Of a stretch of DNA of 64,000 nt, positions 2,468-9,687 are shown piece by piece. The DNA comes from Poseidonibacter ostreae. GTDB lineage: Bacteria > Campylobacterota > Campylobacteria > Campylobacterales > Arcobacteraceae. The notes beneath the pieces were generated by a model that made no database searches, was not told the DNA's origin, and saw only the letters and a program-made list of their open reading frames with translations. The stretch lies in assembly GCF_009208075.1 (NCBI RefSeq), contig NZ_WFKJ01000007.1:1-64000 (forward strand), given 5' to 3'. The translations under genes were made by a program, and so were the position numbers. Numbering within the stretch: position 1 is the first letter of the stretch; every line of letters starts with the position of its first letter.

Positions 2468-3838
2468 TTATAAACTAGAAGCTAATACTACTTGATTTCT
2501 TCCCTGCTGTTTTGCTTTATATAAAGCATTATCTGCATTTGCTAGAATATCTTTTAGCGTCAACTCTTTCTTTGCTTCAGAAACACCAAATGAAGCAGTA
2601 ACTTTTCTTATTTTAAAATCATACTCTTCAATTAGTTTTTTAAGTCTTAAAGCAATTACTGAGGCATCTTTTTCTGTAGTGTTTTTACAAATAATTAAAA
2701 ATTCTTCGCCACCCCATCTTCCAATTTCATCATTTTTATTTAGACTATTTTTTAATAGACGTGATAATTCAACTAAAACTTTATCTCCTTCTAAATGTCC
2801 ATGGATATCGTTTATTTCTTTAAAGTGATCAATATCTAAAAGAATTAATGAATATTTTTTGTTTTTAGAATCATTTAATAGTTCATCTAGTTTTCTTCTA
2901 TTATGAAGATTTATTAAAGAGTCTGTAGTTGATAGCTTTTTTAATTTTTTATTATATTCTCTTAAGTCTTTTTGTTTAAATGAATAAAATAAAATTGCAA
3001 GTAAAATCAAAATCAAAATTTGAACTAAATATTCATATCCAACAAATGTTTTATCAAACTTAACAATAAGCCATTGCCTAATAATACTGTTTTTATCTTC
3101 AGGACTTAACATAGCAATATGTTTATTTATAATTGTTTGTAGTTGTTTATAATCTTTTCTAATCATAAAAGAAACATGAACTTTATGTTCACTTGTTCCT
3201 GATATCTTAAGATTATAATAGCCATTTACAGAAATTAAATGAGCAATTGTTGGTAAAATATCAACTGCAGCTTCAACTTTTCCTGCACTTAAAAGCTCTA
3301 AAGCTTCTTTTGTATTTTTTACTGTTACAAAATCAATATTAGGAAAATGCTCTTTTAAAATATTATGAGAACTGTAGTTTTCTCCAACTGCAACTTTTTT
3401 GCCTTCTAAAAATGAAGCATTTGGAATAAATCTTTTATCAAACAGTGTGGCAAAGGCTATAGGAAAAGATATATAAGAGCTTGTGAAATTTGCATAATCT
3501 AGTTTGTTTTTGTCATAAGATGTACCAATTGTAATATCAGCTTCTTTATTTTTTATGGAATTTAAAACATGATTCCAATCTTTTGCAGTTACTATTTCTG
3601 AGTTAATATGTGCACGCTCTTTAATCTTATTCCAAAAATCAATAGCAATCCCACTTAATTCATCTTTATCATTATACATATTTATTGGTGCCCAGGTATT
3701 TGATGTAATAACTTTGATTTTTGTGTTTCTTAAGAAAGCTTCTTCTTTAGGAGTTAGTTTTACATAATCAATTATTTCATTTGCAAATAAGCAGTTTGTA
3801 AATATTAAAAAAAACAATAAAAATTTGACTTTATTCAT
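2468..3838 (-). CDS. Diguanylate cyclase with periplasmic solute-binding domain
   Basis: Makes cyclic di-GMP in response to a periplasmic ligand. Signal peptide (1-19), then an SBP_bac_3-type domain (about 30-260), one transmembrane helix (about 266-286) and a GGDEF domain (about 300-456) with the active-site motif RWGGEEF. The binding domain resembles those for amino acids or other small solutes. The usual RxxD inhibitory site five residues before the GGEEF motif reads N-K-N-D, so product inhibition through a classic I-site is probably absent. The gene lies downstream of uvrA and the DUF309 gene on the same strand with a 27-base gap. The ligand cannot be told from sequence. Confidence 0.92.
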   Translation of the reverse strand: MNKVKFLLFFLIFTNCLFANEIIDYVKLTPKEEAFLRNTKIKVITSNTWAPINMYNDKDELSGIAIDFWNKIKERAHINSEIVTAKDWNHVLNSIKNKEADITIGTSYDKNKLDYANFTSSYISFPIAFATLFDKRFIPNASFLEGKKVAVGENYSSHNILKEHFPNIDFVTVKNTKEALELLSAGKVEAAVDILPTIAHLISVNGYYNLKISGTSEHKVHVSFMIRKDYKQLQTIINKHIAMLSPEDKNSIIRQWLIVKFDKTFVGYEYLVQILILILLAILFYSFKQKDLREYNKKLKKLSTTDSLINLHNRRKLDELLNDSKNKKYSLILLDIDHFKEINDIHGHLEGDKVLVELSRLLKNSLNKNDEIGRWGGEEFLIICKNTTEKDASVIALRLKKLIEEYDFKIRKVTASFGVSEAKKELTLKDILANADNALYKAKQQGRNQVVLASSL

Positions 3839-7021: not shown

Positions 7022-7054
7022 AATTATATTAGCCTTTAAATTTTTGAAGCTAAT

Positions 7055-7065
7055 ATTATATTATA
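7055..7065 (-). promoter_or_regulatory. uvrA promoter -10 region
   Basis: On the minus strand the segment reads TATAATATAAT, giving two overlapping TATAAT boxes 35-45 bases before the uvrA ATG. No -35 consensus is evident, as is usual in this group. Confidence 0.5.
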
Positions 7066-7212
7066 CTCTTAACTAATTACTGATTAAATATTCTATGCTT
7101 TTATATAAATTATAAACTTATGTTCTAATTCTAAAGTTTAAATTATTTATAATAAATTATTAAAGAAAATTTAGATACTTTTTACTTAATAAAATGTAGA
7201 GGATAAAGAGCT

Positions 7213-9687
7213 TTGAATAGATTTTTAAATAGTTTTGAATTCAATGAAAAAAAATATTATTACTGTGATTTAGAAAAAGTATATGAATATTTTCCAAAAT
7301 TAAAAAAACTACCTTATTGTTTAAAAGTTTTGCTTGAAGCAAATATTAGAAATGCAGATGAAAATGATGTTAATGATATTATAGATGTTTTTATAACAAG
7401 AAATCATTTAAAACAAATTAGCTTTAATGCAAATAGAATTATAATGAATGAATTTAATGCTGTTCCTACTTTAGTAGATTTTATTTCAATTAGTGAAAAT
7501 ATATCTAAAAAACTAAAAGTAATGATTGATGTAGTTATTGATAATGTTGATAGTATTAATAATAAAGAAGAAAAAAATAAAGAAAGATATAGCTTCTTAA
7601 AATATATTGGAAATACTTTTGAAAATATATCTATTATTCCTCCAAATGATAATCCTTTAAAGCAAGTGAATTTAGAATATTTATCAACTATGCTTTCTTT
7701 AAAAAGAGAAGAAGACAAAGTTGTTCTTTTCCCAGAATCAATAGTAGGAACTGATTTACACAGTTCAATGCTAAATTCACTTGGAGTACTCTCTTTATGT
7801 GTTAGTCGAATTGATATACAATCAGTTATGCTAGAGTCTTCAGTTTTTTTAGAATTACCTAAAACTATAGGAATTCAAATCAAAGGTTCTTTAGCTCAAG
7901 GAACGAGTTTTAATGATGTTTTATTAACATTGAAAAATCTTGTTATACACAATAAAATAGATGGAAAGATTGTAGAGTTTTATGGTGAGGGCTTAAAAAA
8001 TATATCTTTAGAAGATAGAACTATCTTATCTAATTTAATTTTAGAATATAGTGGAATTGGAGGATATTTTCCTGTTGATAATAATACAATCTTTTTTATA
8101 GAACAAACAAGAGGTGTTGATGCATCTTTAATCAAAACATATTATGAAAAACAAGGTTTGTTTTTATCAAAGGATTTATTAAATAATTCAATGGAGTATG
8201 AAGAGTTTTTAGAACTTGATTTATCAAGTGTTCTACCAATAGGAGTTCTTGTAAAAAACTCTTACGAAGAGTTTTTTGTAAGTGATGTATCTAAAAAATT
8301 AAAGACTTTTAAAAAAGGAAATTTTGTAAAAGATAATGATATCGTTTTAGCACTTATTGATATTTGCTCAAATACAACAAATCCTTCTTTATTAATTCAA
8401 GCTTCTTTAATTGCAAAAAAAGCATGTGGTTTAGGTATTAGTATAAATAAAAATATTTCTAAGTTTATAACTTTTCATTCGCAAGTGCAAAAACAGTTTT
8501 TAGAAAAACTTGATTTACTAAAATACTTAGAACAATTAGGTTTTCTTATTGTTAAAAAAGAAGAAATATCTATAAGTGAAAGTATCTCTTTAGATGTAGA
8601 AAAATTTAACTTAGATGTGTCATATATCTCATATTCAAATAATATGGAAAAGATTTTAGATAATAAATTTGTAAAATCTAAATGGATATTTTCGCCTGCT
8701 TTAGTAATTGCATATTGTTTAAAAGGAAATATGGACTTTGATATAACTAAAGAAAATATTTCACAAGATATTTACTTAAGTGATATTTGGCCAAGTATGA
8801 CTGAAGTGAATGAGTATTTAGAAAAACTTGATTACTCTATTTATAAAGATTTATATGAATATATTTTTGTAGGTAATGAGTATTGGCAATCATTAACTTT
8901 TGATAAATCTGATACTTATACATGGGATAAGAACTCTACATATCTTTGTAAAACTGAACTTTTTGATAAAAAAGATAGAAATGTTATTGATATAAAAAAC
9001 TTAAGAATATTAGCACTTTTTGATGAAGATATCTCATCTGAACAAATTTCTCCAAAAGGTAAAATATCTTCATACTCTTCAACAGCATTATTTTTAAAAT
9101 TAAAAGGCTTACTTCCTGATGAATTTGATACTTTTGAAAATAGATATGCAAACTCTCTTGTAATGACAACATCAATTTTATCAGATAGTAAACTACAAAA
9201 TAAAATAGTAAAACCAAAAGAGGGTGGATATACAAAAGATTTTGAAACTAGTGAAATTATGTCAATATATGATTTTTGTACTAAAATAAAAAATAATAAT
9301 ACCCCTTTAATAATATTTTCTGGAAGTAGTTTTTGTATTGAAGATAAAAATGACTGGACTGTAAAAGGATTAAAATTATTAGGTGTTGATGTTATTGTCG
9401 CTAAATCTTTTTCAAAAAGTTATAAAAATGATCTTCTTAAGCTTGGAATTTTACCCTTAGAGTTTATTGATGATGATATTGAATCTTTAAAGTTAAAAGG
9501 AGATGAGATTATCAATATTCAATCAAAAAGATTAAAAGCAAATGATAAAATAGAGTTAGAGATTTGTAGAAGTGAACAATGTAAAGTCATTACTGTTTTA
9601 TCAAAAATACAAAATGATAGGGAATTAGAATATTATAAAAATGGTGGGGTTTTAGAATACTTATTAAAAGATACTTTAATAGATTAA
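7213..9687 (+). CDS. Aconitase A-like protein with degenerate active site
   Basis: Collinear with the AcnA/IRP family over its whole 824 residues: KLPYCLKVLLEANIRN (32-47), RYSFLKYIGNTFENI, QVNLEYL (151-157), GTDLHSSMLNSLG (179-191), EYSGIGGYFPVD (278-289), CSNTTNPS (385-392), DIYLSDIWPS (519-528), and a swivelling domain with YDFCTKIKNNNTPLI and DWTVKGLKLLGV (714-725). Key residues are gone. Only C385 of the three Fe-S cysteines survives; the canonical CTTCIGNSG segment is replaced around 447-458. The DHS motif is D-N-V (110-112), the catalytic GSSRD is I-E-D-K-N-D (709-714), and the NRNFEGR motif is not preserved. Starts at TTG with GGA/AGAG upstream. Monocistronic between divergent uvrA and a double terminator. 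Probably not an aconitase; an RNA-binding or scaffold role is inference. Confidence 0.8.
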   Translation: MNRFLNSFEFNEKKYYYCDLEKVYEYFPKLKKLPYCLKVLLEANIRNADENDVNDIIDVFITRNHLKQISFNANRIIMNEFNAVPTLVDFISISENISKKLKVMIDVVIDNVDSINNKEEKNKERYSFLKYIGNTFENISIIPPNDNPLKQVNLEYLSTMLSLKREEDKVVLFPESIVGTDLHSSMLNSLGVLSLCVSRIDIQSVMLESSVFLELPKTIGIQIKGSLAQGTSFNDVLLTLKNLVIHNKIDGKIVEFYGEGLKNISLEDRTILSNLILEYSGIGGYFPVDNNTIFFIEQTRGVDASLIKTYYEKQGLFLSKDLLNNSMEYEEFLELDLSSVLPIGVLVKNSYEEFFVSDVSKKLKTFKKGNFVKDNDIVLALIDICSNTTNPSLLIQASLIAKKACGLGISINKNISKFITFHSQVQKQFLEKLDLLKYLEQLGFLIVKKEEISISESISLDVEKFNLDVSYISYSNNMEKILDNKFVKSKWIFSPALVIAYCLKGNMDFDITKENISQDIYLSDIWPSMTEVNEYLEKLDYSIYKDLYEYIFVGNEYWQSLTFDKSDTYTWDKNSTYLCKTELFDKKDRNVIDIKNLRILALFDEDISSEQISPKGKISSYSSTALFLKLKGLLPDEFDTFENRYANSLVMTTSILSDSKLQNKIVKPKEGGYTKDFETSEIMSIYDFCTKIKNNNTPLIIFSGSSFCIEDKNDWTVKGLKLLGVDVIVAKSFSKSYKNDLLKLGILPLEFIDDDIESLKLKGDEIINIQSKRLKANDKIELEICRSEQCKVITVLSKIQNDRELEYYKNGGVLEYLLKDTLID

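Follow-up and report, generated by a model that had tools for sequence, protein, structure and literature searches.

A selected, probably non-catalytic aconitase paralogue of the Arcobacteraceae whose active site is dismantled differently from lineage to lineage

Apo-aconitases are classic moonlighting proteins. AcnA combines regulatory and catalytic jobs, and its non-catalytic role is hard to study because both jobs sit in one molecule. In active aconitases, domain 3 carries the three cysteines of the iron-sulphur cluster. Among bacteria, the apo-AcnA of Mycobacterium tuberculosis binds an IRE-like element in the cwlM mRNA (PMC7527780), AcnA of Streptomyces has a regulatory action (PMC3912134) and apo-AcnB of Escherichia coli binds its own mRNA (PMC4150767). 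Paralogues without catalysis are a known kind as well. IRP2 is an earlier example of such a paralogue, its role being regulatory only (PMC4112806), and YbhJ of E. coli has been described as catalytically inactive, its deletion rendering cells sensitive to H2O2 (PMC4054840). Here we analyze a gene of Poseidonibacter ostreae in a stretch of 64,000 nucleotides (the window) that very probably encodes another selected, non-catalytic paralogue, maintained in the Arcobacteraceae. Its family lies on a branch of its own and appears to be undescribed; our literature search, which covered open-licence papers, found no paper on an Arcobacteraceae pseudo-aconitase family.

The gene and its domains are arranged as follows, the boundaries having been mapped onto the window protein from what we take to be the domain limits of IRP1:

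7213..9687, + strand: coding sequence of the pseudo-aconitase, 824 aa, TTG start, AcnA/IRP1 type (Pfam, NCBIfam, PDB sequence search, AlphaFold, Foldseek)
7213..8250, + strand: domains 1-2, residues 1-346 (boundary via IRP1 alignment; pooled pN/pS 0.19)
8251..8796, + strand: domain 3, residues 347-528, with one cysteine remaining in the window protein (pooled pN/pS 0.15)
8797..8982, + strand: interdomain linker, residues 529-590, the part under the lowest constraint (pooled pN/pS 0.35)
8983..9684, + strand: domain 4, corresponding to Aconitase_C, residues 591-824 (Pfam; pooled pN/pS 0.17)

The end-to-end alignment with aconitase A claimed in the initial annotation was borne out. The Pfam domains Aconitase and Aconitase_C match residues 68-505 (2e-58) and 625-751 (1e-14), respectively, and the NCBIfam AcnA models span residues 6-822, yet score below their cut-offs; thus, TIGR01341 reaches 569 bits, under the AcnA equivalog threshold of 945. 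The nearest solved structures found by a PDB sequence search are those of IRP2 and IRP1 (2b3x, 3snp, 6vcd). An AlphaFold model based on 15 sequences, used instead of one based on 10 sequences (pLDDT 67), has a mean pLDDT of 86.8 and a pTM of 0.86, and Foldseek placed the AcnA model 9a4j at the top of its matches, followed by IRP1 (3snp, 2b3x, 3sn2) and IRP2. We are confident that the predicted structure represents a full-length fold of the AcnA/IRP1 type. The window protein thus shares domain order, full-length alignment and fold with AcnA and cytosolic aconitase (TIGR01341, NF006757), but remains below the curated cut-offs and is devoid of the catalytic and cluster residues. YbhJ is likewise a bacterial aconitase paralogue without catalysis, but it belongs to a different subfamily (27.8 bits for the window protein against the NF008503 cut-off of 641), and the likeness does not imply an orthologous function. 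AcnD, the 2-methylisocitrate dehydratase of the methylcitrate pathway, is a member of the same superfamily in which no cluster or catalytic residue is missing and which groups in a clade of its own; the window protein scores 325 bits with TIGR02333, whose cut-off is 1420, and its gene is not located at prpF/prpC.

To describe the active site we scored 21 catalytic and cluster residues, with the numbering of the pig mitochondrial enzyme transferred via conserved motifs. All 21 are present in four canonical AcnAs, including one from the same family, Arcobacteraceae (L051), whereas the window protein retains nine: D100, D165, H167, N258, E262, C358, N446, S571 and R580. The positions that stand out in the alignment are:

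7540..7545, + strand: D110-N111, in place of the catalytic pair D100-H101
7660..7662, + strand: K150, in place of H147
8365..8367, + strand: C385, the equivalent of C358 and the sole cluster cysteine left
9142..9144, + strand: R644, the counterpart of the substrate-binding Arg580, invariant in all 34 orthologues
9343..9351, + strand: D711-K712-N713, in place of the catalytic S642-S643-R644

Replaced are H101, H147, R447, R452, D568 (by E), C421, C424 and S642-S643-R644, and Q72 and S166 have become N and L. Hence, among D100/H101, H147, R447/R452 and S642/S643/R644, D100 alone is left. The initial annotation had called the site dismantled, and every lesion that it listed is correct: two of the three cluster cysteines (C421 and C424) are gone and Cys385 is present, the DHS motif reads DNV, the cluster-adjacent histidine is Lys150, the catalytic Ser-Arg loop has been replaced, and the arginine motif NRNFEGR is lost, N446/R447/R452 reading N-N-L. 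It overlooked the survivors D165, H167, N258, E262, S571 and Arg580 (residue 644 of the window protein). From the missing ligands we infer that the window protein would be cluster-free.

The genome of P. ostreae (G000, 2.96 Mb) provides for aconitase chemistry elsewhere, since it encodes both an AcnB (C35), for which the initial annotation had suggested looking, and an AcnD. The latter is a canonical AcnA-type protein (L002) encoded between prpF and prpC, a context that identifies it as AcnD. The window protein, which is 29% identical to it, represents a third, extra copy, and this rules out that it is the only aconitase of the cell. For Arcobacter butzleri, AcnB has been described as the enzyme of the TCA cycle and AcnD as that of the methylcitrate cycle (PMC2147049).

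A six-frame search over 100 relatives, a scan of GTDB genome contigs and a further search over 104 Arcobacteraceae yielded at least 34 orthologues with open frames, found only in Arcobacteraceae; in the search of 100 relatives, other families of the order gave matches at the level of LeuC only. Full or nearly full length (783-850 aa) is preserved in 32 of the 34, and the other two lack domain 3. In a protein tree, the pseudo-aconitases are separated from AcnA and AcnD with a support of 100/100. Loss of catalysis with preserved architecture, as initially proposed, is a property of the whole family: all 34 sites are damaged, each lineage differently, and no two lineages share the same set of remaining residues, which ranges from 18/21 (L059) and 16/21 (L042) down to 3/21 (L171). 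No orthologue has an intact S642-S643-R644, and S642 persists in one; R452 and C424 are retained in four each and C421 in 13. At least one cluster cysteine is missing in 31 orthologues, and all three are present in L042, L047 and L059; L059 and L042, which keep much of the site, could carry a cluster. The best preserved positions are Arg580 (34/34), D100 (28/34), S571 (27/34) and D165 (26/34). Parsimony on the tree assigns 2-11 changes to 20 of the 21 sites, R580 being the exception; these counts are approximate, because unordered parsimony equates gains with losses and the alignment of the cluster loop is partly uncertain. On the simplest reading of alignment and tree, S642 and R452 disappeared at the root of the family or close to it, and the cluster and the remaining sites followed later, repeatedly.

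The damage does not single out the active site. The family retains 49% of the active-site residues and 54% of the other residues that are invariant in the four reference AcnAs, so special targeting of the site for change was rejected and nothing points to a newly built one. About 55 columns are invariant across the 32 full-length members, and the invariance of R580 alone is therefore no proof of ligand binding. The family has fifteen near-invariant residues of its own, for example N44, F60, E175, E267, K308 and I784. In genome G048, the gene of one of the canonical AcnAs immediately follows nifH-nifD-nifK and precedes those of a TOBE protein and a molybdate-type ABC transporter, which places an intact aconitase inside a nitrogen-fixation cluster (L051:3727-15369; G048:C5). 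Descent of the family from this nif-linked AcnA was considered; the tree gives no supported sister placement.

Selection was assessed from dN/dS (Nei-Gojobori) in eleven close orthologue pairs, with bootstrap intervals for a subset. The values lie between 0.06 and 0.27, and the intervals, where computed, are far below 1. Close pairs with dS of 0.2-0.5 give 0.12-0.21, the window gene and its nearest relatives 0.25-0.27, and three further pairs 0.06-0.14. In the pairs used for the bootstrap, AcnD has 0.09-0.24 and uvrA 0.03-0.05; the pseudo-aconitase exceeds its active paralogue AcnD in most pairs and uvrA about 4-6 times, and it evolves faster than its neighbours. In this AT-rich gene, one in 15 single-base changes creates a stop, so that roughly 34-104 stops would be expected neutrally in the close pairs; none is observed. 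The 34 orthologues contain no stops or frameshifts down to about 35% identity. The view that the intact frame of 824 codons is kept by selection is thus upheld, the search for relaxed selection and frequent frameshifts among orthologues having revealed neither, and a pseudogene is rejected. Shared by 34 orthologues and accompanied by purifying selection, the damaged condition goes beyond chance. Domains 1-2, 3 and 4 are constrained to a similar degree and the linker less so; purifying selection thus covers the folded protein as a whole.

The orthologues occupy one site in nearly all members, with uvrA in divergent orientation on one side and tauE-cysE-speA-hisS in convergent orientation on the other; this shared location speaks for vertical descent. 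An operon partner was sought at these loci and none was found; the gene is a monocistronic unit, and its neighbours are unrelated. Two features lie upstream:

7022..7212, no strand: divergent intergenic region between uvrA and the pseudo-aconitase gene, 87-90% identical among near relatives
7160..7181, + strand: promoter-like motif TTAAAGAAAATTTAGATACTTT, from comparison of orthologue upstream regions

Among near relatives the intergenic region is better conserved than the gene is at its third codon positions (67-68%), and related promoter-like motifs are found 48-62 nt upstream of most orthologues. The exact pattern of the motif has a single match in the genome, and hence a regulon could not be inferred. 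As the motif was defined after the sequences had been seen, its count in shuffled sequence serves as a guide only. An inverted repeat, TATTAGC...GCTAATA, lies beside the uvrA start within the same region.

Conservation of the gene does not mean that it is needed everywhere. It is absent from many genera, and in a congener (G005), whose genome is small, uvrA and tauE are separated by 186 nt in which no trace of the gene was detected (L093:4346-4531). The loci L093, L099 and L101 are clean empty sites with a uvrA-tauE distance of about 100-190 nt; genomes G020 and G034 have empty sites similar to that of G005. Truncated or broken copies occur in L022, L069 and L072, of which L069 and L072 are reduced to C-terminal parts; for the broken copy of G007 an assembly error is possible, since the same contig shows a truncated cysE frame. 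Given the clean deletions in relatives, the initial annotation has to be corrected: the gene is dispensable and its role non-essential, and the lesions differ by lineage, forming no single new conserved site. Two orthologues have lost a segment in frame, L071 (619-622 aa, depending on the start) window residues ~342-536 and L171 (671 aa) window residues ~348-546. The breakpoints nearly match, and the missing part corresponds almost exactly to domain 3. L071 and L171 are 49% identical, and two independent deletions were not established, as a single shared deletion is compatible with the AU test (p 0.765). In the case of a single deletion, the frame of the short form would have remained open during a long divergence, which would show that the role has no need of the cluster domain.

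That the active site has been dismantled differently by species and the gene is still kept argues that selection acts on something besides catalysis. We propose that an AcnA paralogue confined to the Arcobacteraceae and vertically inherited would have lost its Ser-Ser-Arg/Arg452 chemistry early, with the Fe-S ligands and other site residues disappearing later and separately in each lineage, as alignment and tree suggest. AcnB and AcnD, whose genes are present and whose roles are those reported for A. butzleri (PMC2147049), would be able to do the isomerase work in the host species, and the pseudo-aconitase probably acts through its fold. As to how, we tentatively put first an apo-like, locked protein with RNA as its ligand and an influence on mRNA stability or translation, because mRNA binding by the cluster-free form is a documented non-catalytic activity of bacterial AcnA; we regard this step as doubtful. 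The IRP1-style RNA regulator suggested in the initial annotation lacks support so far. Among the IRE contacts of IRP1, a list that is partly our assumption, S681, P682, D781, W782, N298 and N439 are kept, some of the first four belonging to structural motifs, and R269, S371, K379, R713 and R780 are replaced by I, V, E, Y and N. Binding of the IRP1 type was therefore set aside, several contacts being lost. An Rfam scan of the window gave no match, including none to an IRE-type RNA family. The window protein has an acidic pI of 5.1, its family as a whole is not basic either, and domain 3 appears dispensable in L071 and L171; RNA binding is possible but unsupported. About as likely is a protein-protein role, in which the fold would be kept for an interface with, for example, AcnB, AcnD or isocitrate dehydrogenase, and no firm choice between a metabolic partner and RNA can be made from sequence alone. 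The top fold match, 9a4j, shows AcnA assembled with isocitrate dehydrogenase in an integrative model, which indicates that AcnA scaffolds do bind metabolic partners, and both the constraint across domains 1-2 and 4 and the persistence of domain-3-less forms would suit such a role. Within the family searched at genome scale, AcnD is encoded in nearly all genomes that bear the gene, yet also in many without it, an association confounded by phylogeny and genome size, and the monocistronic gene shows no genomic link to a partner.

The remaining alternatives are less probable. That the gene is a decaying relic, an AcnA copy redundant with AcnB and AcnD whose frames are open only because the erosion is recent, would agree with its absence from many genera, the clean deletions, the truncated and domain-3-less copies and its faster evolution than its neighbours; we consider it unlikely in view of the low dN/dS in all eleven pairs, the 34 open frames at identities down to about 35%, the family-specific invariant residues and the maintained upstream motif. 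Even less probable is a changed enzyme, a hydro-lyase or isomerase of another substrate with a cluster-independent mechanism based on Arg580 and the partly kept D100, D165 and S571. Arg580 is never lost, and AcnD has a histidine at this position, but the site is not conserved in the family, and the tree requires 2-11 changes at its other positions. With some 55 invariant columns, a single site residue without variation is not remarkable, and domain 3 can be lost. Least credible of all is a working aconitase with unusual ligands, for which the full-length fold and the 18 of 21 residues of L059 could be adduced: the window protein is without C421/C424, H101, H147, S642, S643, R644, R447 and R452, and the structures 1c96 and 1b0m are of S642 and R644 single mutants made as inactive forms. 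These two mutants we take to have lost activity.

We think it conceivable, somewhat short of an even chance, that the repeated, parallel dismantling of the aconitase site on a scaffold under purifying selection constitutes a natural experiment that separates an ancestral fold-only function of AcnA from catalysis; the dismantling goes as far as the loss of the whole cluster-bearing domain in one or two lineages. A family without catalysis but with the fold offers a direct route to the non-catalytic role and to the protein parts that it needs, and the graded series from 18/21 to 3/21, together with the domain-3-less forms, constitutes a set of ready-made comparisons. For annotation, a domain match will label these proteins aconitase, though none should be active.

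The neighbourhood of the gene varies. At 2468-3838 the window encodes a diguanylate cyclase (GGDEF) that also has an SBP_bac_3 solute-binding domain; about half of the loci have it in the same position. Extra genes adjoin the pseudo-aconitase in L037-L041, L047-L050, L165 and L166 (clusters 17, 20, 23, 24, 26, 27 and 30), so that the intergenic site looks prone to frequent insertion. Next to the truncated copy of L072 lies a small ORF of 180 aa (L072:5431-5973) that starts with MKTIFLKECIMSNKQNVFISYHHDND and by eye resembles TIR-like or effector-type domains.
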